In this document: positions 39 to 41,091 of the stretch, in pieces | Numbering within the stretch: position 1 is the first letter of the stretch | Layout of the letters: each line of letters starts with the position of its first letter | From: Candidatus Obscuribacterales bacterium | Lineage (GTDB): Bacteria; Cyanobacteriota; Vampirovibrionia; Obscuribacterales; Obscuribacteraceae | Length of the DNA stretch: 41,091 bases | Assembly: GCA_019744775.1 (NCBI GenBank) | Contig: JAIETZ010000006.1 | Span: 1 to 41,091, forward strand | Direction of reading: 5' to 3' | Notes under the pieces: model-generated | What the model was told of the DNA's origin: nothing | The model's database searches: none | The model's input: the letters and a program-made list of their open reading frames with translations, nothing else | Position numbers and translations under genes: made by a program

Positions 39-46
39 AAAAGATT

Positions 47-136
47 CGGAGAGGGTGGGATTTGAACCCACGGTACAGCTTTTGACCGTACAACTTCTTA
101 GCAGGAAGCCGCTTTCGACCACTCAGCCACCTCTCC
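47..136 (-). tRNA. tRNA-Ser (anticodon GCU)
   Basis: This is a 90-nt tRNA with a 7-bp acceptor stem (GGAGAGG at 136-130 paired with CCTCTCC at 54-48) and discriminator G at 47. The anticodon stem-loop is GCTTC-CTGCTAA-GAAGT, giving anticodon GCT, which reads AGC/AGU serine codons. The T-arm carries GGTTCAAATCC. A long variable arm (around GTACGG...CTGTAC) between anticodon arm and T-arm marks it as class II, as expected for serine. The 3' CCA is not encoded. A strong terminator follows immediately. Confidence 0.97.
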
Positions 137-171
137 AGGACCTAGAAATATATCATATGCTGAATCAAAGA

Positions 172-266
172 AGCGAAGCAAGGGCGGCGATGAGCCGTCC
201 GCCGCTAGCGCACTCCCACAGCCGGATGGCAAGCGAAGGTGCTGGCTTTGCAGCACCGGAGCGTTA
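172..266 (+). repeat. Three-hairpin intergenic repeat, copy A
   Basis: This 95-bp element matches 8635-8730 along its whole length. It starts AGCGAAGCAAGGG, ends CACCGGAGCGTTA and contains three hairpins. The first is GGGCGGC-GATGA-GCCGTCC (182-200), the second GCC-GGAT-GGC (221-230), and the third GGTGCTG-GCTTTG-CAGCACC (238-257). The corresponding stems in copy B have different bases but still pair. The element abuts the stop codon of cdsA, lying antisense to that gene. Its function is unknown. Confidence 0.8.
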
Positions 267-1163
267 CTAAAGAATCCCTAATACGACGAGACAAACCCAG
301 TAGTAAGCAATCGGAGCTGCGATGATTAAGCTGTCGCCTCGGTCAAGCATGCCGCCGTGTCCTGGAATAAGCGCGCTCGAGTCCTTAAACCCGGCGTCGC
401 GTTTCAACAGAGATTCGCAAAGATCACCAAGTTGGGCAGCCACTGAAAGCACGGCTCCCATAAAGGGTGCCTGCCAGTAACGGAATTGAAATGGGTGATT
501 GGGAAAAAGATAGTTGTCGGCGACATAGCAAACAAGACACGAGAAAAATATTGATGCAACTAGTCCGCCAATTGCACCTTCAACGGTTTTCTTGGGACTG
601 ACTTGCGGATACAAAAGAGTCTTGCCGAATCTCTTTCCAATTACATAGGCAAAGACATCAGTCGCCCAGACGATAAATAGAGTTGCCCAAACATACGCCA
701 GTCCAGGTTGTTGCAATGGATTGAACGGAAGTTCAGTCATATTTGGTGGTATGAGCGTGCGCAACATAACTAGATGGCTAGGCATCCAACCAACGTAAAT
801 AAATCCAAGCACGGTGGTGGCGATATCCGCAATTGTTGCCGGTGGATTTTCATGACGGAAAAGCAATCGAAAGAATGATGTGCAAACTCCAACAGTTAAA
901 ACAACAGGCAAATGCTCAATAGAAAAATCCCAGGAAAGATTCAATCCAGGAATTGCCGGCAACGCAGCAAGCACAAAAAATGCAATGACCATGCTACGAA
1001 TAATTCTTGGCGATGGATTCATACCCTTAGCCCGTGTCATGGCAATATATTCTTCACCAGCTAGTAATGAAACCGCACAAAGAGCAATTGCCAGAAACAC
1101 ACCGCCGGCCATAATGCTGCCGACGGCAACTGCAAACATCAGCCATCCCCAGAGCACTCTCAT
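267..1163 (-). CDS. cdsA: Phosphatidate cytidylyltransferase (CDP-diacylglycerol synthase)
   Basis: The enzyme transfers CMP from CTP to phosphatidic acid to make CDP-diacylglycerol, the branch-point precursor of bacterial phospholipids, in the inner membrane. The 298-residue protein is a string of hydrophobic segments and ends with the CdsA family signature: SLLKR at 251, then FKD, and HGGMLDR ending near residue 275. The length is normal for CdsA. The ATG overlaps the TGA of the upstream YibE/F gene by 4 nt (ATGA), so the two are probably translationally coupled as the last genes of a ruvB operon. The stop codon abuts the three-hairpin repeat at 172-266. Confidence 0.95.
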   Translation of the reverse strand: MRVLWGWLMFAVAVGSIMAGGVFLAIALCAVSLLAGEEYIAMTRAKGMNPSPRIIRSMVIAFFVLAALPAIPGLNLSWDFSIEHLPVVLTVGVCTSFFRLLFRHENPPATIADIATTVLGFIYVGWMPSHLVMLRTLIPPNMTELPFNPLQQPGLAYVWATLFIVWATDVFAYVIGKRFGKTLLYPQVSPKKTVEGAIGGLVASIFFSCLVCYVADNYLFPNHPFQFRYWQAPFMGAVLSVAAQLGDLCESLLKRDAGFKDSSALIPGHGGMLDRGDSLIIAAPIAYYWVCLVVLGIL

Positions 1164-8023: not shown

Positions 8024-8566
8024 CTATTGCTTGCGACGATAAAACGAAATCGACGTCTGTCCGTAGTCTCGACGGTCATAGACAACTAGATCGCCAGATT
8101 CTTCCGGCAATTTGAATTCTCTTGCGTGTTCAATGGCAAGAACACCATCATCATGCAGAATATCTCGACGCGCGACTTGATGAAGAACACTCTCCGATTG
8201 CCGACTCTTATAAGGCGGGTCCGCAAAGATTATGTCGAAGCCGCGTTTGGGTAATTGGTCTAGAAAACTTCGGACGTCGGCTTGAATGACCTGTCCTTGG
8301 AAGTTGAGCTTCTCCAAGTTATCTTCGATGACTTTGACCATCTTGCGGCTTTCATCAATGGCTACGAGTTCACGGGCCCCTCGGCTAAGCGCCTCCAGCC
8401 CCATGAGACCAGAACCGGCAAAGAGGTCCAGAAAACGGGCGTCATCTACTTTGTTACGCAATATGTTGAAAAACGCCTGCCTAATCTTAGAGGCAGTAGG
8501 TCTGGCTTCCAGCCCCGGTGGGCAGTTTATTTCACGTCCCCTGGCTATACCTGCCGTAATTCGCAT
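8024..8566 (-). CDS. rsmD: 16S rRNA (guanine-N2)-methyltransferase RsmD
   Basis: RsmD methylates G966 of 16S rRNA in the assembling 30S subunit using S-adenosylmethionine. The 180-residue protein begins MRITAGIARGR and has RPTASKIRQAFFNIL, the SAM-binding DLFAGSGLMGLEALSRGA, and the catalytic DPPY (ADPPYKS), all typical of RsmD. The length is normal. It converges with the Rieske gene and diverges from nusB. TATAAA lies 5 nt before its ATG. Confidence 0.95.
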   Translation of the reverse strand: MRITAGIARGREINCPPGLEARPTASKIRQAFFNILRNKVDDARFLDLFAGSGLMGLEALSRGARELVAIDESRKMVKVIEDNLEKLNFQGQVIQADVRSFLDQLPKRGFDIIFADPPYKSRQSESVLHQVARRDILHDDGVLAIEHAREFKLPEESGDLVVYDRRDYGQTSISFYRRKQ

Positions 8567-8609: not shown

Positions 8610-8624
8610 TAACATGTCATGTTA
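8610..8624. promoter_or_regulatory. 15-bp inverted repeat between rsmD and nusB
   Basis: TAACATG-T-CATGTTA is a perfect 7-bp inverted repeat with a one-base centre, placed between two divergent genes. It could be an operator, but a 7-bp arm can also arise by chance in a window of this size. Confidence 0.25.
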
Positions 8625-8634
8625 TGCCCGCACT

Positions 8635-8730
8635 AGCGGAGCAAGGGTTGCGTAGAGCAATCCGCCGCGGAGCGCTAACGAATGCTGGACAGCAAGCGAA
8701 GGTGCTTACGCAGAAAGCACCGGAGCGTTA
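8635..8730 (+). repeat. Three-hairpin intergenic repeat, copy B
   Basis: This 96-bp element is homologous to 172-266. The hairpins are GGGTTGC-GTAGA-GCAATCC (8645-8663), GCT-GGAC-AGC (8684-8693) and GGTGCTT-ACGCAGA-AAGCACC (8701-8721). Relative to copy A, the stems carry compensatory replacements (CGGC/GCCG to TTGC/GCAA, C-G to T-A, G-C to T-A). The element ends 10 nt before the nusB start, so if it is transcribed it occupies the nusB 5' leader. Confidence 0.8.
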
Positions 8731-8740
8731 AGAGTTAGAT

Positions 8741-9517
8741 ATGTCATCCCGCCGCCTAGCTCGCGAACTAGCGATTATTACATTGCCCCAGTTGCCCAAA
8801 GATGAGGCAAAACTGGATCAGTTGGAATTGGACTTTTTGGTGTCCAAAGCCGTGCAAATGCTTTGCGACTATGCCAAGCAAAATTTGGCTGACGCCAATG
8901 CTTTACTGGTGAAGGCCGACAAAGAACTCAACGAAATTGAAATTGAACACAGCGACAATGCTAAAAATGTAGACGAATTGGAATCAGTTCCACTGACGAC
9001 CGGTCAGTTGCGCAAACAACTTGAATTGATTGAGAGATCTCTTCATCTTGCTTCGGAAGCTTTGGATATTCCTGAGATTGCTACACATAGCGCGCACATC
9101 ATCAAAGAAGTAAATTGCAAAAAATGCAAAGTCACGTTGGAAGTACCGATTCAAAAAACAAGTGAGTCGGATGTACTTTCGTTCTTCCGTCAACTAATAA
9201 CCACTTACATGGAACATCGTGAGCAAATTGACGAATTCCTCAAGCAAATTAAAGCGAAGTGGCGTTTGGACAGAATGATCTCCATCGACCGCGATATCCT
9301 TCGCCTGGCTTGTGCAGAGTTATTCTTCATGCCTGATGTACCAGTCAAAGTTGCTATCAACGAAGCCATTGAATTGACACATCGTTTCGCTGATGACAGA
9401 GCTGCGAAGTTTATCAATGGCGTGCTTGCCGATCTTTCTGAAACTGCTGGTCAATACAGAACCACCGGCGAATTCACGTTACAAGAAGAAGCAGCAACAC
9501 ATTCATCCGACAAATAG
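8741..9517 (+). CDS. nusB: Transcription antitermination factor NusB, with cyanobacterial-type insertion
   Basis: NusB binds boxA RNA with NusE (S10) and promotes rRNA antitermination. The C-terminal third contains the conserved NusB block: LDRMISIDRDILRLACAELF, VPVKVAINEAIELTHRFADD and KFINGVLADL. The N-terminus (SSRRLARELAIITLPQLP) is followed by about 100 residues of charged helical sequence as in cyanobacterial NusB proteins. At 258 residues it is much longer than the ~140-residue E. coli protein. The insertion carries a CKKC pair near residue 127 that might bind metal. It is followed after 2 nt by ftsY, so the two form an operon. The gene starts just after repeat copy B. Confidence 0.85.
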   Translation: MSSRRLARELAIITLPQLPKDEAKLDQLELDFLVSKAVQMLCDYAKQNLADANALLVKADKELNEIEIEHSDNAKNVDELESVPLTTGQLRKQLELIERSLHLASEALDIPEIATHSAHIIKEVNCKKCKVTLEVPIQKTSESDVLSFFRQLITTYMEHREQIDEFLKQIKAKWRLDRMISIDRDILRLACAELFFMPDVPVKVAINEAIELTHRFADDRAAKFINGVLADLSETAGQYRTTGEFTLQEEAATHSSDK

Positions 9518-20934: not shown

Positions 20935-23900
20935 ATGCGTAGCACTGACCTAATGGCACGGCCCCTGGCTCTTTTGCTAGCCTTCGTTTTAACGATAGGT
21001 GCTACCGCGTTTGCCCAACAAGCCGAAACTCCAGCCCAGCCGGCATCTCCAGCCACCCCCACTGTGCTTGATCAAAGCACACTCGGACAAATGTCCAGCC
21101 TGGTCGTCAATCATAACGAGACGCTGGCAATTGATTTCGGTGCCCTGAATAACGGCATTAACCTGACAGGCAACCTTACCAATAACGGGTCCATATACGC
21201 CTATTCAACCAATCCCAATGTCACTGCCGGCTCGATAGGCGCCAACAACATTTTCAACGGCGGATTAATTACATCCGTTATGCCGACAAGCGGCATTCCC
21301 GGACTATCTTTGGATTTATCTACACTGGTAAGCAACTTCAGTCTCAACCTGAGCGCCATAAACAATATCGTAAATGCCGGAACCATAGCCAGCGCTGGAA
21401 ATTTAAGCCTGACGGCCGGAGGCACGATAACCAACGCGGCAACAGCAGCAAATATGTCCGCAATCCTCTCGGCAGTCAATAACATCAACATGACAGCCAA
21501 CAACATAATGAACAGTGGCGTGATTGCCGCTATGCAAGGCAATATCAATATCGCCTCGCAAGTAGCTTCCAATTTGGTGCTCAACAATATTGCCGGACAA
21601 CTTTCCGCCCTCAACGGTCAAATCAACCTACGCGACCCAAGTTTCGCCGGAAAATTCAACATAAGCGCATTGGGAGGAGACTTCCTTGCACAGCAACTGA
21701 ACGCCTATTCAGGCGAGGGCATTGTCAGTATAGACGTAGGGCGCCTTGTCGGACGGGTAAACGTTCAAGCCGGAGATCTGCATATCGCATCGGCTACAGA
21801 CAACTTGAATCTCGGCGATATTACACTAACCGGCGATCCAACTTTCTACAACACGGCCGGTGACGTGACTATAAGCGGCAATCTGGGAACCTTCGCTTCG
21901 CCATTGACTGTCTTAGCGGTAATTGCCAGTGGCAATATTGTGACTACTGCAGGAGCCGGCTCCATTGATACCCACAACGGATCGGGATCAGGCGGAGCTA
22001 TTACCATGATCGCCGGGGCTCAGTTCACTTCCAGCGGTCCGGCATCCGGCAGCAACGATGTTTCATCAACACTGACAATTACCGGCGCTTCGGCAACCGG
22101 AGGCAGAATCGATCTTTCCTCCGGCACAGCAATTACCTCTTTGACTTCCGCCTCCACTGGCGGAGGCGGAGCAGGCGGCGCCATTCAACTCCTGGCATTT
22201 GCCGGTACAGCGAGTAATTCCGGCACGATCACTCTGCCGACTGCAGTCACAGTAAACGCCAGTGGCAATGGTGCCGGCAGCAACGGCAACATTACCATCC
22301 TGGCCGGAGCAGATACAGGCACCACAATAACGACGGGCGCAATAACATCCAGTGGCGGAGCGGTCAACTCAGGCAGCATTACAGTCAAAACAGCGCAGCC
22401 GATACTAACCAGCGCCGCAGTGACTATTAATCCGGGCGGTGCCATAGGCGCAGGCGGATTTGCCGCCGGTGCCATTACCGGAGCCTCGCTATCCACGTTG
22501 GCATTACTATCAGGAGGCGGCACCATAATAGTAGCCGCCGGTAATAATGCCACCACGGGCGCAATTACGAGCACTGCTACCGCCTCCGGAAGTGGTGGCA
22601 CCATCAGCATCAACACCAACAGCGCAACAAGTTTCAATGTCGGCGGCGGGGGATCCAATGGTTCAACAGGCGCCATAGTAGCCAATGCCCTCACCTCCGG
22701 ACAAGGCGGCAGTATATCCATTACCAACAACGGCTCCGGTGGTATCACACATAACACTTCCGCCAATTTAAGTGTGACTTCAGCAGGAAATGGTCGAGGT
22801 GGCTCTATCACGCTAGACGCTCTAGGTAACGGTATCACTGGAGCATTGCAACTGGGCACTGGTGGAACCGCAGTCACCATCAGCGCCAATGCGTCCGGTT
22901 CAGGTTCCGTCGGTGTTGCACCAAGCAACAACATTAAACTTGTCGGCTCAACCTTAAGCTTCAGCACTAATGGACTTAATCTCAATGCCACAGGAGGCAC
23001 GACTGGAGCCGGTGGCAAAGTTTCCGTTGAAGTGATCGGTGGCACAATAACTGCCGGCACAGCCACAACGCTCAAAGTCAGCGCCATCGGAGGTAGTACA
23101 TCAGGAGCCGGCGGCAGCATCACATTGAGTTCAAGCGGAACATTAACAGTGACGCCCGGCGCCAACTTCTCCGCCAATCCGACAAACGGAGCAGGCGCCA
23201 CTTACAGCTTAACTTCTACCGGAGCGGCCGTCTCAGTAACTGCAGCTCTCAGTGCCAGCGCAGCAGGAGGAGGCGGTGGAGCCGGCGGCACCATCACAGT
23301 CAGCGCAGGAACTACCGCAGGATTCACCGGAGCGCTGAGCGCCAATGCGCTTGTCAGTGGTGCCGGCGGCATCATTCAAATCGACAGCAACAGCGGCACT
23401 GCCTTCAACGTAGGCGGCTCGGGGACGCAAGGGACAAGCAGCACAATAAGTGCCAATGCCGTCAGCGCCGGACAAGGTGGACAGTTATATATAACCAATA
23501 ACGGCACAGGTGGAATTACACACAATACAAGCGCCAACATAAGCGTCAGTTCCGCCGGCAACGGACGAGGTGGAGTGGTATCACTCGACGCCGTAGGATC
23601 CGGCATGACCGGTGCTCTCACATTAGGGACTGGTGGTACAAGCGTGACTGTATCGGTCAATGGCTCCGGCTCCTCTTCCGTCGGCAGCGCCGTCACAAAT
23701 AATATTTTCCTGAAAGGCTCGACGCTTGCCTTCAGCACCAACGGGCTGCAGCTAAATGCAAATGGAGGCACAACAGGGCAAGGCGGCAGCATCTCCGTTG
23801 AAATAATAGGCGGCACACTGACTGCCGGTACAGGAACAACGCTGAGGGCCAGCGCCATAGGTGGCAGCACATCAGGGGCGGGCGGCAGCATATCACTTAT

Positions 23901-26900
23901 ATCCAGCGGCGCTCTGACGGTCACACCCGGCGCCAACCTGACAGTAGCCCCAACCAACGGCGCCGGTGGCACCTATCAATTTACTTCCACCGGTTCATCG
24001 GTAACGGTTTCAGCGGCACTAACGGCCAGCGCCAGTGGTGCCAATGGCGGAGCCGGAGGCAACATCTTCGTAAATGCATGGACCACCGCCGGCTTCTCTA
24101 GTACAGTTTCCGCCACTGCCGCAGGTTCGACAGGCGGAAATGGCGGCACAATAAGCATCACCACTAATAGTGCATCCCCGTTCAATATCGGTAGCTCCTC
24201 CTCACAAGGCACAAGCGGAGCAATTTCCGCAAATGCGGCGGTCAGTGGACAGGGTGGCATTGTCACCATAACCAATAATGGCTCAGGCGGTATCACTCAC
24301 AATACAACCGCCAACTTAAGTGTCACGTCGGCAGGCAATGGGCGAGGCGGAGCAATTACTCTTGATGCTTTAGGGTCAGGACTGTTAGGAACATTACAAC
24401 TAGGCACCGGCGGCACCGCCGTCACACTCACAGCTTCAGCCAGCGGCTCAGGTTCAGTCGGAACAGCGCCGGATGCCAACATAAAACTAAAAGGTGCTTC
24501 ACTCACTTTTAGTACTTCCGGGCTCCAGCTAACTGCAACCGGTGGTACCACTGGTGCCGGAGGCGTGATTGACGTTGAGCTTACAAACACTGCACTCACC
24601 GCCGGTACAGCAAGCACTCTACGAGCAAATGCCGGAGGCGGTAGCACATCAGGAGCTGGTGGTACAGTGACGCTCAACGCAAGTGGCGCCCTTACCCTCA
24701 CGCCGGGTTCCAATCTGACAGCCAACCCAACTAATGGTGCCGGTGGCACTTATAACTTTGTATCCAGCACATCTTCCGTCACGACTTTGGCCGCGCTGAG
24801 TGCCAGTGCCGTAGGTGCCGCTGGAGGCAACGGCGGCAACATAAATATCACAGCCGGAGCCAATGTCGGCATAACTGGAGCACTTAGCGCTAATGCGCTT
24901 GTCACCGGCTCGGGTGGCACCATTTCACTAACCAGTAACAGCGCCACTACATTCAACATCGGTGGATCCGCAACACAAGGTACCAACAGCACGATAAGCG
25001 CCAATGCCGCAAGCACCGGACAAGGCGGCAAAATATCCATTACTAACCACGGCAATGGTGGCATCACACACAATACCACTGCCAATCTCAGTGTCACATC
25101 AGCGGGAAATGGTCGTGGCGGCTCAATACTGCTCGATGCTGTAGGCAGCGGCCAAACAGGTGTCTTGCAGTTGGGCACCGGCGGCACACTTGTTACGCTT
25201 GTCGCTAGTGCCTCCGGTTCAGGCAGCATCGGCACGGCACCTGAATATAATATCTTGCTCAAAGGCTCAACACTGAACTACAGCACCAACGGATTGCAAT
25301 TAACCGCTGACGGCGGAACCACGGGACAAGGAGGCAGCATTTACGTAGAGGTTTCAGCCAACACGTTAACCGCCGGTGCTACATCTACTGTGCTCATCAG
25401 TGCAAAAGGTGGCAGCACATCCGGATCCGGCGGTGCAATTACGCTCATTTCCAGTGGCGATCTTACAGTCACCCCGAATGCAACGAGATTCACGGCTGCA
25501 CCAACCAACGGCGCTGGAGCAACTTTCAACTTAACTTCCACCGGTGGACTAATCGAAGTAACCGCAGCCATGAACGCAAGCGCGCAAGGGTCCGCCGGCG
25601 GCGCAGGAGGAAATGTGTACGCCAGCGCTGCTAAAACAGTCGGCTTCACCGGGTTGCTAACTGCAAACGCTGCCGGCAGCGCTGGCGGCAATGGTGGCAC
25701 GATTTACATCGAGAGCATTAGCAGCGAGCCGTTTGATCTAAATCACTCCGGCGTACAGGGTACGACAAGCCGTATTGAAGCGGAAGCTGCTGTGAGCGGG
25801 CAGGGCGGCTCAATTACAATTATCAACAACGGCACTGGCGGCATCTACAATCATGCCACCAACAACCTTAGTGTTGCTTCAGCAGGCAACGGACTAGGAG
25901 GCAACTTGACACTTGATGCCGTAGGCAGCGGCACCGGCGGAACGATTCAAATAGGCACCGGCGCTACAGCGGTCACCATATCGGCCAATGCATCGGGATC
26001 TGCTTCCGTAGGTGTAGCCTACGAAAATAACATTACGATCAAAGCAAAAACACTCACCTACAGCACCAGTGGAATGGACTTAACCACCACCGGCGGTGCC
26101 ACAGGGCAAGGCGGCTCGATATACGTGCAATTGATTGGCGACAACATTAATGTCGGCACGGCAACAAGCGCTCGATTCAATGCCGCCGGGGGCAGCTCGT
26201 CAGGGGCAGGCGGGCGCATTGACATACAAACAATGGGCTCACAAGCAATTACAGTCGGTTCAAATTTCAACGTCGCCCCAACAAACGGTAATGGCGGCTC
26301 CTATAATCTGACATCACTAAACAGCTCAATAAACATTAGCGGTGGCAGTCTTTCCGCTAATGCCGTTACATCCGGCTCCGGCGGCAACATCACCATATCA
26401 GCAGGACTCGACAATTCAACAAAAGGCGGCTTGTTGAGCTTCTCCACAGCCTCTTCAACCTTGACTGCCAATGGAGTCGGTTCAGGTAGTGGCGGTAATA
26501 TCAGCATTAGCGTCAATAGTTCATTGCCTTTCAATATTGGCGAAGCCGGTCTTAATACCAACGGCACAGGCGCGGCGATCTCTGCCAATGCCGGTGTCAC
26601 CAGCGGCAGTGGCGGTTCAGTGAGCATATACAATTACGGCAACGGCGGTATCACATTGCCCGCCAATAACATTTCCGTAACGTCTTCCAATGGTGCCGGC
26701 GGCACAATAATCTTGGATGCGACTGCCGGCACAGTAGACGGTCCGCTCAACTTAGTAAATGGCGGCATACTGTCGGCCAATGCCACAGGAAATGGTAATG
26801 GCGGAACAATTAGCCTTTCTGCATCGTTAATAAACTGGGCTGCCGCCACCGCACCTGGACTAACGCTCAATGCCAACGCCGCCGGCACAGGCAACGGAGG

Positions 26901-29900
26901 CATTGTGTCCATAACAACTACCGACAGCCTCACTTCCATCACCATTGGTTCTGCAGTCATGCAATTTACAATAAATGCTGTCGGCGGTTCAATATCGGGC
27001 TCAGGCGGACAATTAACACTTTCGTCAGGCAAAGACATTACAGTCAATGTAGGTTCGTTGAGCCTCAATCCTGTCTCCGGCAGTGGTGCCAGTTATACAT
27101 TTACGGCCGGCACGAATGCTGCTGCCACTAGCGGCAACATCGCCATTAACGGCGGCAGTTTGTTTGCCGATGCAATTGCCGGCGGTGCCGGCGGTATAGG
27201 AGGCAGCGGTGGTACAGTAACAATTATTGCCGGACAAAACAATACAACGGGTGGTGGCATTCTATCTTTCGGTTCAAGTTCGGCCACTGTTACAGCCAAC
27301 GGCACAGGCACCCTATCCGGCGGACAAGTAAGTATTACTACCAACAGTTCCACTACCTTTAACATCGGTTCCGCTTCCACGGGAACCAATGGCACTGGTG
27401 CAGCCATTGCCGCCAAAGCAGAAGGCTCAAGTGGTAACGGGGGCTCAATTACAATCAAGAATAACGGCACTGGTGGCATCACGCTGCCTGGTTCCAATTT
27501 GCTTGTTACGGCAGCCAATGGTGATGGCGGCACAATCATTCTTGATGCAGCAAGTGGTGCCACAGCGGGCGCCCTGACAATTACAACCGGCACGGTACTT
27601 TCCGCCAACGGACAAGGAGATGGCGCAGCAGATGGCGGGCTAATAGGTCTCAAAGGTAGCTCCATAACTTGGGTCGGCAGTGCAAGCCCGGCGTTAACAC
27701 TCAACGCTAATGCTTCCGGCACTGGTAACGGCGGCCAAGTAATAGTAACTACAACCGGCACCACAAGCGACTTGACGATTGCCTCGTCAGCCACAGGCTT
27801 GGTAATAAACGCACGAGGGGGCTCCATCCAATCAGCTTCCGGCAATGGCGGAGCGGTGACCATATCCGCAGGCAGAAACTTGTCGATAACCACTGCCCAG
27901 CTATCAGCTAATCCATTAGGATTTAACGGAAGCGGAGCGCAACTAACATTTACTGCCGGTGCAACTGGGACCACCGGCAATCTAGTCATTACAGGAGCGC
28001 TGGCAGTAAATGCAGTTGGTGTCGGCAACGGCGGCAATATAAGTCTTACATCGAAGTCTGCGACCACCTTCAATGTTGGTGGTGGCGGCGCCAATGGCAC
28101 GAGCAGTTCAGTTAGCGCCAATGCGGTTACAAGTGGACAAGGCGGCACGATTTCTATAACCAACAATAGCACCGGTGGCATTACTCACAACACCTCAGCG
28201 AATTTAAGCGCAACATCTGCAGGAAACGGTCTGGGCGGCAGCATTATTCTTGATGCTGTCGGCACGGGCAGCGGCGGTGCGCTGACACTAGGCACAGGTG
28301 GAACTGCCGTTACCATTTCCACAAATGCCGTCAACTTGGCATCAGACGGCAGTGCTCCAACCTACAACATCAGGCTGAAAGGCACCACTCTCAGTTTCAG
28401 CTCCAACGGTCTCAACTTAAACGCCAATGGAGGCGTAGCCGGCAAGGGTGGAACTATCTCAGTTGAAATTACAGGCGGATCGGTCACAGCCGGTACGGCA
28501 ACGACGCTGAAAGCTTCGGCAGTAGGCGGCACTCGTTACGGGGACGGCGGTAACATATCCGTCAGTTCAAGTGGTGCGCTTACGGTGACTACAGGGGCAA
28601 ATTTCACTAACAGTCCAACGGACGGCAGCGGCGGCATATATAATCTTGCTTCGACTGGCGGAGCAGTCAGCATATCGGGTGCGATTAGCGTCAGCGCCGT
28701 AGGTAGTGTCGGTGGAATAGGCGGCACAATTTCAGTTAGCGCCGGTACCACTGCAGGCTTCTCCAGTACAGTCAGCGCCAATGCCTCCGGTTCACAGGGC
28801 GGCAATGGCGGCACTATTTCCATCAGCAGCACCAGCGGCACTACTTTTAACATCGGTGGTTCGTCCTCACAAGGAACAAGTGGTGCCATATCGGCCAATG
28901 CCTTAGTCAATGGACAAGGTGGCACGATTTCCATAACCAACAATGGCACAGGCGGCATAACGCACCTCACGTCAGCCAACTTGAGCGTGTCATCAACCGG
29001 CAATGGTCTTGGTGGTGCAATCCTACTCGACGCATTAGGCTCAGGTCCCAGTGGCACTTTGGTATTAGGCTCTGGTGGCACAGCAGTGACAATATCCGCC
29101 AATGCTTCCGGTGCCGGATCTGTGGGGGTTAGTCCTTCCAACAATATTAGGTTAAAAGGAGGCTCCCTGACATTCAGCACTAACGGGTTGGTGCTTGATT
29201 CAAATGGTGGCACCACAGGCAATGGTGGCAACATATCCGTACAAGTCACTGGTGGAACAATAACCGCCGGCACAGCTACGACTGTCATGATTACAGCTGA
29301 AGGAGGTAGCACATCAGGCAACGGGGGAAGCATCTCACTTTCTGCCAGTTCAACCCTGACCGTAACTACCGGTGCCAACTTTAACGCCGCGCCAACGGAC
29401 GGAGCAGGCGCCAACTACACACTTGTTTCAACCGGTTCTTCCGTTAGTGTAAGTGGTGCTCTTTCAGCTAGTGCAGCAGGGAGCATCGGCGGAGCTGGAG
29501 GAACAATCAGTATAAGTGCCGGCACCACTGCCGGTGCCTCAAGCACTCTCGCTGCCGGCGCCGCCGGCACACAAGGTGGCAATGGCGGCAGTATTTCCAT
29601 AACAAGCACCAGTGGCACCACATTTAATGTCGGCGGCTCAAGTTCACAAGGAACAAGCGGCGCCATCACCGCTAATGCCGCAGTCAACGGCCAAGGCGGC
29701 TCGATTTCTATAACCAACAACGGCACAGGCGGCATTACTCATAACACAACGGCCAATATCAGTGTCACGGCAGCGGGTAACGGCAAAGGCGGGTCGGTTA
29801 GCTTGGACGCTGTCGGATCCGGGTCAGGTGGTCCTTTGCAATTGGGGACTGGCGGCACATTATTGACAATAGACACAAGCGCCATTGGCTCAGGCAGCAT

Positions 29901-32900
29901 GGGCACCCAGCCGACAAACAACATTTTTCTAAAAGGCACCACTCTTAGTTACAGTTCAAGCGGACTACAATTGACAGCCGATGGAGGCACAACAGGAGCC
30001 GGCGGCAAAGTATATGTGCAAGTTACAGCCGGTACTCTCACAGCCGGTACAAACTCAACCATCAAGGTTCATGCCGAAGGCGGCACCACATCAGGAGCCG
30101 GTGGTGCAATAGCACTCATTGCCAGTGGCACTCTGACGGCCTCCCCACAAGCCACGCGGTTAACAGCAGCACCAACCGACGGTGACGGCGCCAGTTACAC
30201 TTACATCTCAACCGGTTCATCAGTTGTCGTTACTGCCGCCATCAACGCCAATGCCCTGGGACCAAGCGGCGGCAAAGGCGGCAACATCACAATTGAAGCA
30301 GCCACTACAGCCGGACTGACAGGACTTGTGCGTGCTAATGCTAAAAATTCCATCGGCGGCAATGGCGGGACCATTACCATTACGACCAATAGCAGCACCG
30401 CTTTTGCCGTCAATGCTTCGGCAGTCCAAGGCACAACTGCAGCCATCGAAGCAATCGCAGCAGGCGACGGACAAGGCGGAACAATAATTATTACGAACAA
30501 CGGCATCGGTGGTATCACAAACAACACCAACGGCAATATAACAGTCACTGCCGCCGGCAGCGGCTTAGGTGGCGTAATTGTTTTGGACGCCATAGGCACA
30601 GGACCCGGTGGGCCGTTGCAGATCGGCACCAGCGGCACCGCCGTTACCTTGTCAGCCGATGCCGTCGGATTCGGCGCAGCGGGAAGTGCCGCAACCAACA
30701 ACATAATTCTCAAAGGAACTACCCTGAGCTATGCCACAACCGGACTCGTTCTGAGCGCAACTGGGGGCACCAGTGGCGATGGCGGTAAAATAAGCATTCA
30801 AACAACCACAGGCGGACTCGTTTTAGGCACAGCTTCCAGCATACGGATCAACGCCACCAGCGGCAGCACATCCGGAAACGGCGGCAGCATCACTTTAAAT
30901 TCCGCCGGCGCGCTAAACATAACCACAGGAGCAAATTTCACCGCTGATCCTGTTTCCGGCGTCGGTGCCACCTACAGTCTGACTGCTTCAGGCGCAATAG
31001 GTATTAGCGGTAATCTAAGCGCTAACGGTGTGGTTCTCGGGGGCGGCGGAACAATAACCATAAATTACAACGATGCTTCAAATTCGTTTGTCGTCGGCGG
31101 TGTGGTCACCAATAGTGGTATCACCGGCAATTTAACGGCCGACTCCGCAGGTCAGGGAGCTGGTGGAGGGACAATTACCATCAACAATTCGGCGTCCGCC
31201 AACTTAGACATATCATTGACGGGCTCAATCTCTGCAAGCACCACATCGGGAACGCTTGGACAACTCAATTTCAGCAAGCCGGGACAAACAGTGCAAATTC
31301 TCGGCACGGCAGGCGCCGGCAGCTTAGCAGGATTTGTCAATGCAACAGGAAGTGTCATAAATATTCAAACTCAAGCTAATAGCACTACACTCACTCCCGG
31401 AACCATTACAAGCACAGCAGGAGCTCTAACCTTAAGTGCTGCCGGTTCAGGCTCCAGCATTCAACTCCTAAATCAAGCGGCAATTAGCGGAACTGGCGGC
31501 ACTGTCACGCTATCAGCACCAACTATCAATATCGACTATATTGGTGCTTCGCATATCACGACTGTCGGTGGAGCAGCCCTCACTCTTAATTCATCGACGG
31601 GCTCATCGCTGACAATTATTAGCCCCTCCAATTTCGGCGCCACTCTCAACACTAATGGCGGTGCCATTACCATTGCGCCCGGTGCCGGACAGAACCTCAT
31701 CTTTGCTAATTCAGGCAGCATTGCCACCACTCTCAGCCTAACGGGTGCAACAGTCGCCATAACCACTAGCGGAACCGCATCAACCACCATTAACAGCCTG
31801 GTCAATGTAACCAGCAGCAACAATATCGTTCTAACAACCAGCCAGTTGAATTTGAACAATGCCGGACAAACAAACCTAAGCGTTTCCGGTGCTGCAACAA
31901 TTCAAGTCACTTCACCCACAGGACAAGCACTGACCATTCAAACACCATCAGGTTCATCGGCAGCCATTGGCACAGCAGGTGGCTCGCTGACAGTCTCACC
32001 TATATCCGGACAGAATCTTTTCTTTGCCGTTTCCGGTGGCACAGCCGGTACTCTCAACTTAAATGGCGGTGCGGTCAATATCACAACAGCCGGCACAGCA
32101 ACAACAACAATAAACAACTTCGCCACTGTACAAAGTAACAACAATGTTGTTGTAACAACCAGTCAATTGAACTTGAATAACGCCGGCAATACTAATCTGA
32201 CAGTTACCGGCGGTACAAACACAATCCAAATAACCTCACCTTCTGCTCAGACCCTAACAATCCAGTCTCCCTCAAGCTCATCGGCAACTATTTCAACAGC
32301 CGGTGGCGCTCTAACAGTTGCTCCATCCTCCGGACAAAATTTGATATTTGCTGCCTCAGCAGGTGCCGCCACCACACTTAATCTTAGTGGAGTCGCACCC
32401 AGTATCTCAACAAGCGGCACAGCGACTACAACCATCAATAATTTTGTTACCGTTTCAAGCAACAACAATATGACAGTTACGACAAGGCAACTAAACCTGA
32501 ACTATGCTTCAGGCACAAGTCTGAGCGTCTCCGGCGGCACAAGTACAATCCAAATAACATCACCAAGCGGGCAGTCCTTAACAGTACAGGCAGACTCCGG
32601 AGCCTCATCAACTATTGCCACTGCCGGCGGCGCCATCACCATCTCGCCTAATGCCGGACAAAATCTTGTATTTGCCAACGCCGGCGGAATTGCTGCCACC
32701 ATCAACCTAACAGGAGCAGCAGCAGGAATTAGTGTCAGCAGTTCAGCTACAGTAACGCGTTCCGGGGATGTAACCATAGGCGGCAGCACGCTCAATTTCA
32801 CATCAAGCACTGGTGACATTGGTTCGTTGGGCACCAACATTAAGACATCGACAACGACACTTTCCGTGAACAATTCCAATCCGGCAAGAGCATATTTCAG

Positions 32901-35900
32901 CAATGCCGGTGCGCTCACTCTGGCTGCATCGTCAGTAGGCGGTGAGTTCGCCGTCACAACAACCGGTAGTAGTGCCAATATCGGCACGACAGGCGCCATC
33001 ACATCAACCAACGGACTGTTGAGCCTCACAGCTAATGGAACAATAACAACCTCAAATGTAATTTCAGGAAATTCACTGCTCCTGCAAACCTCATCAGGTT
33101 CCAACGGTAGCATCGCACTCAATGCCAACGCTACCGGAACAACCGGCGTCACCATCACCACCGACGGTACAGGCAACGTCACCAATCAAGCTGCCACTCA
33201 GATTTCCGCAACTAATTCACCAATTTCTATAACTGCCAATGACGTGGCATTTTCCGGCACAGTCAATGCCGGCACCAACACCGTGACACTTCTACCTAAT
33301 GGTGCAAAATCAATTTCGGTTGCCGGTGCCGGTGGAACTTTCTCAGTTCTTGCAACCGACATAACTGCCGTCACTGCCGGTACCTTAATAGTAGGAACAA
33401 CCGCTCAAATAGGCGGCTTGACCATTGCCGGTGCGTTAAATGTCTCCGGTGGAGGTCCCAACGGCGTCTTTAATCTTCAGTTCAATAATGGCGGCAACTA
33501 CACAGCTGCCGGACAGACAATCACGCTAGGCACACGCACCTTAACCGTGACAGCACTAGGCACTGTTGACACGGGAAGCGTCAGTGGCGGCAATACTACC
33601 GTGTCTATAACCGGTGGCACCAGCGTAAATGTTTCCGCCGCTGTGACAGTGTCCGGTGGCGGATCTATCACACTTGCCACCAGCAACAATGGCAACATAA
33701 GCTTAAGCGCCAATGTCGGGGGAGGAACAACTACGACATTGAACGCCAACGGTACAGGCAACATAAGTCGTTCAGGAGCATTTACTGCCTCGGGAACGAC
33801 AGTCAATCTATTGTCAGGTAGCGGCACCGTAGGCACAGTCGGCACACCAATACTGACACAAGCAGGCACGCTGACTGCCACAGTAGGCGGAACCGGCACA
33901 GCCTTCATATCCAATAGTGGTGCCGTTACCCTTGGCACTTCATCAGTTGGCGGCAACTTCTCCGTCACTACAACCGGCGGATCTGCCACCATGGGCACCA
34001 GTGGTAACGTTTCGTCAACAAGCGGTACTTTGTCACTGACGTCCAATGGAACCATGACAATCTCCAATGCAATATCAGGAAATGCCGTATCGCTGACAAC
34101 ATCTTCCGGTTCTAATGGTGCCGTAACACTCAATCACAATGTTACAGGCACAACAGGGGTCACAATAACTACCGATGGAACAGGTAATGTCACCAATGCC
34201 GCTACCAGATCCATTTCCAGTACCAATGCCCCTATTACGATAACTGCCAATGACGTAGCATTCTCAGGCACTGTTAATGCCGGTACCAACACAGTCACAC
34301 TTCTACCCAACGGCACGAAGTCAATTTCCGTGGCCGGTGCAGGTGGAACATTCAGCGTTTTATCATCAGACTTAAGTGCAATAACTGCCGGTACTCTCAT
34401 TGTCGGCACCACATCAACCGGTGGCGGCATCACGGTTGCCGGAGCGGTTAACGTATCCGGTGCCGGACCAAATGGTGTTTACAATTTGCAGTTCGACAAT
34501 GCCGGCACATTTACCTCAGTCGGACAAACCATCACCTTGGGCGGTAAAACCTTGACCATTCATGCCCTAGGAACCGTAACCCTCGGCACTGTTGTCGACA
34601 CATCCGGAAACGTCACTGTAACCAGTAATACGTCGTTCACGCTGGTAACACCTATCACCATGAGTGGTGCTGGAATCGTCAGCATCACCACCAATGGTGG
34701 AAGCTCATCAGTAGCTATTAACTCAGATATTTCCACAGCCGGCAACGTCACCATAACCACCAACGGCAGCTCTTCCAATGTAAACATTGCCAATCAAATC
34801 ACGGCCGGCGGCAGCCTCTCTATCACCGCCAACGGTAATGTAGTTGCTTCCAACACCTTAACCAGTAATTCGCTGTCCATCCAAACATCGACTGGTTCCA
34901 ACGGCAGCGTCACATTCAACCAAAATGCCAGCGGAACAAACGGCGTCACAGTGTCAACCGACGGCACCAGTTCAAGCATTACTGTTGCCTCCACCAGGAC
35001 AGTCGGCTCATCCGCCGGCGACATTCTCTTCACGACCGCCAATGCCACCATCAACGGCACCGTCAGCACCGGCAAGACTGATGGCAGCCTAACAATTCAT
35101 AGCAATGCAGCGCTTCTCTTGAGCGGCAATGGAACCTTGGAAGCGACAGGCGGGGGCTTCCCGTCCATTCTTGCCGAGGCAACCGGAGCCAACAGTTTAA
35201 CAATTGCCGGCTCATTAAACTACAATGCTTGCGCATCATGCCTTGTCGCCTTGCAATCAACAAGCGGCTCGGTAGTGTTTAACAGCAGCACCACACAAAC
35301 AGGCAATAACGGCCTCTACTTCCAATTTATAGCACCACAAATTACCTTTAACGGCACTGCCACCATCAACAACACAGATGGTTTCATGGATCTAACCGGC
35401 AATACTTCAAGCACAACAATTACTCTTGCCGACAATACTACCGTCAATGTAAATCTGGCATCAGGAACGGCATTCATTGGTTCGTACACGTCTCAAGCGT
35501 TAGCAATAAACAAAACAGCCGGCGCCAACTCGTCCACACTGCAAATCAACAACGAAGTACAAACATTCTCCTATGGCGCCAATACTACAATTGCCGCCGG
35601 CGTCGTCCTTTCTTCCAACAACAATATAACCGTAAGCGTCGATGGCGGCACGCTAAACTTGAACGGATCGCTGACTTCCTCCGCTACAGATGGCGTCATT
35701 GCCATAGGCAGCCTCGACGCCAATACGACGCTAGCGGGCACGCCGCAAGCAGTCACTGTTACAGGCGGAGGTAATCCAACTATTCTTGTGCAGGCAGGCG
35801 GCGGCGGGCATAACTTGAACATCAACAGCTCCTACAATTTCAACGCCGGTCTCAATGGTACTGTCGTATTGACGGCTGATACTTTGACGGTCGCCACCAG

Positions 35901-38232: not shown

Positions 38233-38316
38233 GCATGCAAATTCCACAAGAATTTCACGATTCAGATCTAAACTGTTACTGTCTCAATTTACACCTGAAG
38301 TGAACTTTTAATCATT

Positions 38317-38322
38317 TATAAT
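38317..38322 (+). promoter_or_regulatory. Possible -10 box of the second giant gene
   Basis: A perfect TATAAT lies 20 nt upstream of the conserved leader block GGGATAGAAAGT. No good -35 box is present 16-18 bp upstream. If used, it gives a leader of roughly 165 nt. No clear terminator for the first giant gene was seen between its stop (38232) and this point. Confidence 0.4.
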
Positions 38323-38342
38323 TTGAAAACTCACCCATTTGA

Positions 38343-38495
38343 GGGATAGAAAGTTCATAATAGATATAGTGGAGCGGTAGTGGCAGTGGTTTCCCAATGG
38401 GGCGTTCGCGACGAGTGCAATGAGCAAGTCCAACGCTAGTTGGATGCCTTGTCTTATCGGCGTAGCACCTTCAATACCCCTGTTGGAATCCCTTG
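38343..38495 (+). promoter_or_regulatory. Structured 5' leader of the second giant gene
   Basis: The blocks shared with 20788-20934 are GGGATAGAAAGT (38343), AGTGGA (38368), GTGCAATGAGC (38415), hairpin TCCAAC-GCTA-GTTGGA (38429-38444), ATGCC-GTCTTATC-GC (38444-38461) and TGGAATCCCT (38484-38493), two bases before the ATG. The hairpin sequence differs from that in the first leader but pairing is kept. Confidence 0.55.
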
Positions 38496-41091
38496 ATGCT
38501 CACGTTCTCCCCACTCGCCAAGTTATTGTCAGCAACACTTGCCCTGTCGCTGATTTTGCCGTTTGCAGCCTTTGCGCAAGAAACCCCATCGACGCAACCG
38601 GCTCAACCAACTACCAGCAGCACACCCACAGTTTTGGACCAAAGCGCTGTGCAACAGCTAACGAGTCTTGTCGTTAATCCACAGCAAACAGTAGCAATAG
38701 ATTTCGGCAATTTAGCCGGCGGACTCAATTTATCCGGCAATCTAACCAATAACGGCTCCATCTACGCTTACTCGACAAATCCCAATGTCACCGTCGGCTC
38801 GTTTAATGCCAACAACATCTACAACAATGCCGGCGGACTAATTACATCCGTATTACCAACAGGCGGAATTCCCGGACTTTCAATGGACGTTTCTTCGCTG
38901 GTCAGCAATTTCAGTCTTAACCTGACGGCCATCAACAACATCGTCAACGCCGGCACCATAGCCAGCGCCGGAAGTTTGTCGCTTGCTGCCGGAGGCACGA
39001 TAACCAATGCAGCGACACAGGCAAACATGGCGGCGCTACTTTCAGCAGTTAATAATGTCAACCTAATGGCGAGCAATATCGTCAATTCGGGAGTCATAGC
39101 GGCAATGCAGGGAAACATCAACATTGCCTCGCAATTGGCACAACATTTAACCTTGAACAATATCGCCGGTCAGTTACAAGCCTATAACGGCAGCATAAAT
39201 CTGCGAGACATTAATTTCGCCGGCAAGTACAACACGTCATTAACCGGCGGCGACTTCTTATCCAAAGAACTAAACATATTTTCCGGCAACGGCATTGCCA
39301 ACATTTACGCCAAAGACATAAGTGCTCTCGTCAACATAAGCGCCGGCGAGGCACATGTAACTGCCGCCACTGAAAATCTGCGGCTTGGCTCGATGATAAT
39401 CACAGGTGATCCCTCCATTTTTAACTTAGCCGGAGACGTCACTATTTCAGGGACACAAAGTTTTGCCGGACAACCTTTATCGATAGTAGCTTACGGCAAT
39501 ATTGTCTCGGCAGCAGGAGCTGGAGCCATAAGCACTGCTAACAACTCCGGAGCCGGCGGCAATATTTTAATGGTGGCCGGCGCCAACTTTACTGCTGATG
39601 CCTCAAACAACCTAACAATTTTAGGAGCCTCATCTTCCGGGGGCTTCATCAATCTTTCCTCCACCCCAATAACATCACTGACAGCGGCAAGCACCGGAGG
39701 CGGTGGGTCAGGCGGCAATGTCACACTGATTGCTTACACCGGACTGAGTTCAAATTCAGGAGCCGGTTCCGGCACAATAACTCTACCAACCGGAGTGGCA
39801 ATTACATCGGGCGGCAACGGCACAGGGACAAACGGCAATGTCCTCATAGTTGCCGGAGCAGCCGGGACAACTGCCGTCACTACGGGAGCAGTTAATGCGA
39901 GCGGGGGAGCTGCCTCAACAGGCAACATCAGCATTTACACATCGACACCGACTATAAACGGCGGCGGCTCATGCTCTCCCTGCGTCACCATAAACGGTTC
40001 AGGGGCAGTAACAGGCGGCTCATTTGATGCCACGCGCGACACTTTCAATGCCGTAATTGCGCAAACAGCTTCCATCTCCACAGGCAATTTGACAGCCGGC
40101 GGCAGCACAATTGATATTGTCTCCGGATACAACGCCTCTATAGGCACAGCCGGAGCAGGCAGTAACGCCATTATCAATAACGGCTCAAGCGGCGGCGGCA
40201 CGACAAACATAACGGTCAACAGTCCAAGAACACTTCTTATCAACAGCTCAACTGGTCCAAATAACGTAAACGGACTAATCGTAGCCAATGCGACAGGCAC
40301 AGCAGGACAAGGCGGCAAGATTTTCCTAACCAACAACGGCACAGGTGGTATCACATTAACTGCGCCGACGAATCTTTCCGTCTTAGCCGGCAGCACATCA
40401 GGAAATGGAGGCACCATAAGCCTGTCATCACCTGGGGGCACCGTGACCATACCTACAGGCAACCTGAATGCCAACGCATCAGCAGGAGCAACCGGGGGCG
40501 CCGGCGGCACACTAACGTTGAACGCATCAACCGTAACCATCACCGGTGCCGGACCTCTCAACATGAACGCGGCAGCCAACGTGAACGGCAAAGGCGGAAC
40601 GATCTCTGTCACAGCTTCCGGAGCGGCATCCACACTTACGGTTAATCAAACGGCCGCAGGCGCTCTAAATCTCTGGGCAGTCGGCGGGGCAACATCCGGT
40701 GACGGCGGCTCCGTCACTCTTATTGCCGGCGGCGCACTTAACTTTACTGATTCCGGCGCTTCTAATAATCCTGTCGGCTCAGGCTCCGGCGGATCGTACT
40801 ACTTGCAATCAGGAGCTGCCGGCAATGGTGTCATCAGCTACAACGGCTCATTTACCGATTCAAATGCCGTTGGCACAGGTTCAGGCGGGAATATTACTCT
40901 TATAACTAATAGCTCCATAGCCTTCGACATGGGTTCCAATGCCGGTGGCAACGGATTTAGCGGCATCATTCATGCCCATGCTGCCACATCCGGAGCAGGC
41001 GGCAAGATAACAATTCAAAATTTGGGCAGTGGTGGTATCACTGTTTCCGATCTCAGTGTATTTGACGTGCAACAAGCAGGCTCGGGATTGG
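38496..41091 (+). CDS. Giant secreted repeat protein, paralogue 2 (partial, runs off the window)
   Basis: The open frame continues to the window edge for 865 codons without a stop. The protein starts with a signal peptide ending AFA at residue 27, exactly as in paralogue 1. It then follows the same N-terminal domain almost line by line: TVLDQS, NLTNNGSIYAYSTNPNV, GGLITSV, SNFSLNLTAINNIVNAGT, SGVIAAMQGNINIASQ. A CSPC pair (493-496) is absent from the matching place in paralogue 1. Repeat hallmarks GQGGKIFLTNNGTGGIT and GAGGKITIQNLGSGGIT occur at 40305 and 40992 (229 codons apart). The function is presumably a surface or matrix adhesin, by inference. Confidence 0.85.
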   Translation, partial: MLTFSPLAKLLSATLALSLILPFAAFAQETPSTQPAQPTTSSTPTVLDQSAVQQLTSLVVNPQQTVAIDFGNLAGGLNLSGNLTNNGSIYAYSTNPNVTVGSFNANNIYNNAGGLITSVLPTGGIPGLSMDVSSLVSNFSLNLTAINNIVNAGTIASAGSLSLAAGGTITNAATQANMAALLSAVNNVNLMASNIVNSGVIAAMQGNINIASQLAQHLTLNNIAGQLQAYNGSINLRDINFAGKYNTSLTGGDFLSKELNIFSGNGIANIYAKDISALVNISAGEAHVTAATENLRLGSMIITGDPSIFNLAGDVTISGTQSFAGQPLSIVAYGNIVSAAGAGAISTANNSGAGGNILMVAGANFTADASNNLTILGASSSGGFINLSSTPITSLTAASTGGGGSGGNVTLIAYTGLSSNSGAGSGTITLPTGVAITSGGNGTGTNGNVLIVAGAAGTTAVTTGAVNASGGAASTGNISIYTSTPTINGGGSCSPCVTINGSGAVTGGSFDATRDTFNAVIAQTASISTGNLTAGGSTIDIVSGYNASIGTAGAGSNAIINNGSSGGGTTNITVNSPRTLLINSSTGPNNVNGLIVANATGTAGQGGKIFLTNNGTGGITLTAPTNLSVLAGSTSGNGGTISLSSPGGTVTIPTGNLNANASAGATGGAGGTLTLNASTVTITGAGPLNMNAAANVNGKGGTISVTASGAASTLTVNQTAAGALNLWAVGGATSGDGGSVTLIAGGALNFTDSGASNNPVGSGSGGSYYLQSGAAGNGVISYNGSFTDSNAVGTGSGGNITLITNSSIAFDMGSNAGGNGFSGIIHAHAATSGAGGKITIQNLGSGGITVSDLSVFDVQQAGSGL

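Follow-up and report, generated by a model that had tools for sequence, protein, structure and literature searches.

A probable non-autonomous mobile repeat family with a strand-specific fold in one family of Obscuribacterales

Described interspersed repeats and the two window copies

Structured intergenic elements of ∼100-150 bp that are often transcribed include bcr1 of Bacillus cereus and ERIC of enterobacteria. The end boxes of integron attC sites have the form RYYYAAC and GTTRRRY, and GGA loops are bound by the regulator CsrA. Here we describe a repeat from a Candidatus Obscuribacterales bacterium that is dispersed, non-coding and polymorphic in position and has a conserved fold, the features of structured interspersed repeats of the BOX and bcr1 kind; it is best read as a non-autonomous structured element of REP/BOX-like type, a kind already known. 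BOX of Streptococcus pneumoniae has fixed 5′ and 3′ modules, a variable middle and a conserved predicted RNA structure, and it resembles the present repeat in being composite, intergenic, present in many copies and slow in current insertion (PMC3049150). The two have no apparent sequence relation; the present repeat differs in that covariation at fixed loci supports its fold, in that it spans many genera, and in that no IS partner was found for it, whereas one has been proposed for BOX (PMC3049150). REPs and REPINs with a RAYT are likewise dispersed, strand-defined extragenic hairpins that are sometimes tandem, and REPs are described as 20-40 bp palindromes with a GTAG tag at one end (PMC3733652). 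The present repeat is longer, has several hairpins and ends in GGAGC rather than in a GTAG palindrome, with no GTAG tag in the logos of its ends, and no Y1 transposase was found in its genus (0/3 draft genomes). The CGTC-tagged REPs resemble it in being palindromic, high in copy number and devoid of a transposase of their own, but they are single short palindromes (PMC3733652), whereas the present repeat has no tag and another size.

The hosts of bcr1 and ERIC are unrelated to ours, and the copies match no Rfam family, either at the gathering score in the window or at E ≤ 1 at five loci. The end logos contain no attC-type box at the 5′ end, and no T-run of an intrinsic terminator follows the hairpin, the 3′ flank being A/G-rich. 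A CsrA regulon was rejected because PF02599 is missing from 3/3 genomes of the genus; it occurs in 2 of 50 genomes of the family. No published description of the repeat for Obscuribacterales was found, including in PMC12306157, in a search that covered little of the subscription literature.

The window is the whole 41,091-nt stretch analysed (contig JAIETZ010000006.1, assembly GCA_019744775.1), from the 4.1-Mb home genome, G000; its two genus-mates are G001 and G002. The two copies that an earlier note had placed at 172-266 and 8635-8730 are present, both on the forward strand, and a covariance model (R1, built from alignment A2 of 25 copies) sets their limits at 170-266 (copy 1) and 8633-8730 (copy 2); the search of the genome scores them at 92.2 bits (E = 1.7e-16) and 82.6 bits (E = 2.1e-14), respectively. 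According to a crude longest-ORF caller, used here in place of annotation, copy 1 is flush with the 3′ end of a CTP_transf_1 (cdsA-like) gene (267-1163, reverse strand), which agrees with its proposed location behind cdsA, with the qualification that this gene and a tRNA-Ser gene (46-137, reverse strand), 32 nt away on the other side, are both opposite to it in orientation. G001 has an identical copy (97/97) at the locus of copy 1. Copy 2 is flanked by an RsmD-like gene (8024-8566, reverse strand) and, in sense, by nusB (8741-9517, forward strand), whose start codon follows 10 nt past it. Elsewhere in the window, positions 22253-41091 form a long coding region that repeats itself about every 777 bp, and a repeat of 300 bp is found at 21258 and again at 38831.

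In the genus of G000 the unit spans ∼98 positions and three hairpins. Hairpin A (consensus GC-GNA-GC-AA-G(R)G-CGGC-GATGA-GCCG-K-(Y)C-GCN-GC-GNA-GC) occupies 173-209 in copy 1, as placed by alignment A2, an RNAalifold consensus and pair counts, and 8636-8673 in copy 2; in copy 1 its outer arms (173-174/208-209 and 178-179/204-205) pair round a GNA-type internal loop and enclose an inner stem (182-188/194-200). Hairpin B (GCY-GGAN-RGC) is GCC-GGAT-GGC in copy 1 (221-230) and GCT-GGAC-AGC in copy 2 (8684-8693). Hairpin C (GC-GAA-GGT-GNA-GC...GC-GNA-ACC-GGA-GC, then GTTA) lies at 233-262 in copy 1, with GGAG at 258-261 and a terminal TTA at 264-266, and at 8696-8726 in copy 2, with GGAG at 8722-8725. 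The differences first noticed between the copies are as reported: CGGC/GCCG against TTGC/GCAA in hairpin 1, with a G.T wobble retained, one C-G changed to T-A in hairpin 2 and one G-C changed to T-A in hairpin 3. The hairpins themselves need some redrawing, since hairpin 1 has, besides the inner stem first drawn, flanking GC-GNA-GC arms that pair round a GNA/GNA internal loop, and in hairpin 3 the stem with the change is accompanied by a GAA/GGA internal loop and, outermost, by a GC/GC pair.

Sheared G.A pairs could form in the GNA/GNA loop of hairpin A, and the GNA-loop column pairs 6-39 and 8-37 are among the top 25 covarying pairs. Local GCGNAGC mini-hairpins were rejected because long-range pairing of the arms accounts for more of the cells (98.4% paired, against 95.6%). 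The long-range arm of hairpin A is A-U in 18 of 100 copies, and a standing G.G or G.T mismatch is found in 15 and 10, respectively, of the 25 copies in A2. The folding energies of the two window copies, taken singly, fall weakly below those of shuffled sequences (z = -1.62 and -1.95), so that the evidence for structure is the covariation. One sense frame can stay open through the repeat, e.g. SGEEPVAA...RTASEGEAK (L055, L072, L111, L128, L145), and automatic gene calls may add false N-terminal extensions to downstream proteins.

Copy number, covariation and folding strand

Plain alignment places the repeat at 36 sites in G000. The covariance-model search of the genome and its relatives, which the earlier note had proposed, returned a dispersed family: in G000, R1 has at least 114 matches at E ≤ 1 and at least 108 at E ≤ 0.01 (150 of 1371 first-look candidates scored), with at least 73 matches in G001 and at least 119 in G002 (150 candidates scored in each). 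With more than 100 dispersed copies, the resemblance of the two window copies is more than chance. No sign was seen that the stems are conserved as part of a longer transposon: all 108 G000 matches cover the entire model, the flanks contain no longer conserved unit, and no mobile gene recurs beside the copies. Alignment A2 took 25 of 33 listed copies, leaving out two false hits and most copies with a nested hairpin or a very long loop; repeated identical sequences and those shorter than 60-80 nt were dropped, and 100 distinct sequences from the 108 G000 matches were aligned.

Across the 20 pairs of A2, 98.4% of cells are paired, falling to 24-39% when one side is slid, and 58 cells are double changes, against 15.0 ± 2.8 in shuffles. 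Among 99 G000 copies, five pairs are significant at E ≤ 0.05 under a tree-simulated null (40 gap-free alignments simulated on the inferred tree, without recombination between copies), all of them structural and none outside the structure, and the idea of a structure survived this genome-wide covariation test; 11 of the top 15 covarying pairs are structural, and the remaining four each touch a structural column. The strand that folds is identified by the asymmetry of wobble pairs, G.T exceeding A.C in each of four sets (37:13, 14:0, 18:8 and 16:1; 85:22 summed), in alignments that were fitted to models and lean somewhat towards structure. Together with the double changes at shared loci described below, these results strongly support the selection for RNA or ssDNA structure that was first suggested from two copies.

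Insertion polymorphism and change at shared loci

At the nusB site both genus-mates read CATGTCATG-AC-TATGTCATCC, with contiguous flanks 2 nt (AC) apart, where the window carries a 118-bp insertion (8622-8739, forward strand) that comprises copy 2 with 11 nt to its left and 9 nt to its right; no source for this filler was found among the loci compared. Copy 2 indeed lies in sense 10 nt upstream of nusB, but the supposed leader is an insertion private to this lineage, being absent from both genus-mates. Polymorphism extends to other sites. The 71 G001 copies compared with G000 comprise 34 at the same site, 7 facing an empty site, 2 inversely oriented within the same spacer, 5 one-sided and 23 unmatched among the fetched G000 loci; the corresponding counts for 46 G002 copies are 10, 4, 3, 5 and 24. 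There are thus 11 further empty sites in G000 and five cases of opposite orientation in the same spacer. The original opposition of selected structure to a mobile element does not hold, given more than 100 dispersed copies, polymorphic sites, flips of orientation and the private insertion of copy 2. We consider it probable that the repeat is a non-autonomous mobile interspersed family of ∼80-140 nt with a strand-specific fold and with selection acting on the resident copies.

Flank logos of 164 copies show no fixed target-site duplication, the two ends, GAAGCGAAGC and GGAGCGTTA, do not form the terminal inverted repeats of a classical transposon's MITE, and the clean empty site at nusB can be described as 118 bp replacing AC or as TATG duplicated with a small edit. 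The closest pair within a genome is 94.5% identical in G000 and 94.7% in G001, by a lenient measure, and this lack of near-identical copies gives no sign of recent activity or of a burst. No recurrent mobile-type neighbour gene or autonomous parent was found among the six longest reading frames per locus, and in a search of draft genomes (completeness 77-98%) the Y1/RAYT transposase (PF01797) was found in none of the three genus genomes. A dead RAYT/IS200-type REP family, once moved by a Y1 transposase since lost from the genus, would share the look of REPs, which are dispersed intergenic hairpins, and PF01797 occurs in 11 of 38 relatives in all, including G005, G016, G017 and G019 of the family. 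Yet G001 and G002 hold insertions without a G000 counterpart in a genus without PF01797, the domain is also missing from the copy-rich genomes G004, G010, G018 and G020 (copy-rich G026 lay outside that search), and units of 80-140 nt with several hairpins contrast with the 20-40 bp palindromes of REPs (PMC3733652); we regard such a history as very unlikely.

Selection on resident copies can be followed at the 44 loci shared with the genus-mates, where the 42 double changes comprise 38 that preserve pairing and four that break it, and the 43 single changes divide into 18 that keep pairing and 25 that break it. From the singles, 0.45 doubles are expected in the comparison with G001 and 0.11 in that with G002, against 23 and 19 observed (together about 0.6 against 42), an excess over independent expectation of ∼50-fold for G001 and more for G002. 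The pair-breaking singles mean that the constraint is not absolute. Mutation or recombination alone could also produce covariation, if gene conversion or repair templated by the hairpin kept the arms complementary with no selection on the fold: a whole stem looks exchanged between otherwise identical flanks at L162/L117 and L242/L104, which would yield covariation without selection at the locus, 10 of the 38 kept doubles cannot pass through a G.T step, and the doubles are concentrated in 15 of the 44 loci. The stem swaps and the clustering therefore indicate that conversion between copies contributes. As the whole explanation it is highly improbable in our judgement, since copying of one arm should heal the G.G/G.T mismatch and the internal loops, both of which persist, since the excess of G.T over A.C would be left without a reason, and since the other 28 kept doubles are pairs of transitions, the pattern expected of stepwise compensation.

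A smaller hairpin is nested in some copies. The pattern AAGGAGA-N5-CTAAATG-N5-TC occurs at 21 places in G000, allowing two mismatches; 16 are within listed elements, all on the element's own strand, and one (C2:145094) looks like chance. Three of the four other convincing places (L454-L456) belong to another repeat, which contains TGTCATTTCGACC or its close variant TGTCATTCCGAGC, and the hairpin is present or absent between orthologous copies at L182/L103, L164/L049 and L231/L123. Its ∼30 nt read AAGGAGACGACAC-TAAAT-GTGTCGTCGG, with variants whose arms match (L016, L024, L029, L035 and L457, the last with three in one element). A bolder possibility, which we hold to be unlikely, is that the repeat represents a class of its own among single-strand mobile elements, in which a non-Y1 enzyme acting on folded single strands (ssDNA or RNA) would copy and insert hairpin cassettes, the nested hairpin would insert strand-specifically, often into hairpin loops of at least two repeat families, and resident copies would be kept foldable.

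Gene context, distribution and meaning of the fold

Copies in the genus lie preferentially in sense. Between co-directional neighbours the ratio of sense to antisense is 50:12 in G000 and 27:8 and 19:3 in the other two genus genomes, divergent spacers exceed convergent ones in G000 (25 against 10), and in a stricter tally 8 of 49 sense starts are exactly 3 nt past the element, so that GGAG stands at the distance of a ribosome-binding site. These figures, and the compensatory changes at fixed loci, would suit a cis-acting regulatory RNA leader whose fold controls downstream translation or stability, possibly by hiding the GGAG of hairpin C, the copies forming a regulon. Such a role is quite improbable in our view, because the nusB copy is absent from both genus-mates, the neighbours are tRNAs and housekeeping genes with no relation to one another, 12 of the 62 co-directional G000 copies, copy 1 among them, are antisense, and CsrA is missing from the genus. 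Moreover, G010, a genome of another genus with 44 placed copies, shares the fold and has no sense bias (9:10) and a preference for convergent spacers (17 against 8), which lends no support to a general role in leaders.

It is the 3′ end that lies close to genes, at a median of 12 nt from sense starts and 2.5 nt from opposite stops in G000, and of 4 and 12 nt, respectively, in G010, the 5′ end being distant from starts (134 nt in G000, 160 nt in G010); in the stricter tally, 17 opposite stops lie at a median of 2, and the terminal TTA can act as TAA. We read the gene-proximal 3′ ends as survival of harmless insertions and not as proof of regulation. A tRNA gene adjoins 12 of 97 placed G000 copies, often with the copy 2-9 nt before the tRNA 5′ end (L049, L059, L109, L110, L119, L122, L149 and L154, besides window positions 46-266); this looks like more than chance, in a count not scaled to spacer length.

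The same fold is found in other genera. Twenty weak R1 matches from these, aligned alone, yield both long hairpins again, and 10 of their 16 pairs have changed on both sides, which indicates that the weak matches are real. A second model (R2), built only from other genera, has copy 2 as its best match in G000, matches 82 of 87 scored candidates in G010 and finds the repeat in 22 of 50 genomes of the family, in 14 of 24 genera; over 194 genomes of the class it matches 21, every one inside the family. Among the genomes searched, the repeat is confined to this one family of Obscuribacterales. Short tandem rows with a period of ∼103-110 nt occur in other genera (L406, positions 801-1104; G026:C13:57364-57666; G018:C466:36505-36693). 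Plasmids and phages gave no match, and of four pattern matches in viral contigs two score 21.4 and 17.9 bits and two give nothing at E ≤ 0.1. A contig pattern search returned 107 stretches, and most titles among the 80 listed occur once, which we take for chance; the titles repeated among the matches listed are the two genus-mates, a delta-proteobacterium MAG (two contigs, neither with an R1 match at E ≤ 0.1) and a few others. One contig of Paenibacillus terricola has five matches of 20.6-22.6 bits.

For the mobile family that we favour, one strand would form a pair of long hairpins that contain GNA-type internal loops, joined in this genus by a small middle hairpin, and this folded single strand, as ssDNA or RNA, may be what a candidate mobiliser recognises. 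Inserted copies would often be co-transcribed, and may survive beside genes because in sense the 3′ GGAG could serve as a ribosome-binding site, and in antisense the terminal TTA provides a TAA stop. Most compensatory changes would then reflect selection on the fold of resident copies, and some the exchange of whole hairpins between copies. Against this explanation we count the failure to find a mobiliser, the lack of signs of recent activity, the pair-breaking singles, the stem swaps and the unbiased orientation in G010.

The nusB copy carries a caution, in that a covarying structure in the leader of one gene can be a private insertion. It is an old question whether interspersed hairpins of bacteria are kept for an RNA function or just for hopping. 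Because the fold of this repeat can be traced at the same loci between species, selection on residents is separable from selection on mobility, and the shared loci are ready sites for testing. The letters drift while the shape of the hairpins is kept, even in copies that stay in place, which suggests that something still uses the shape.
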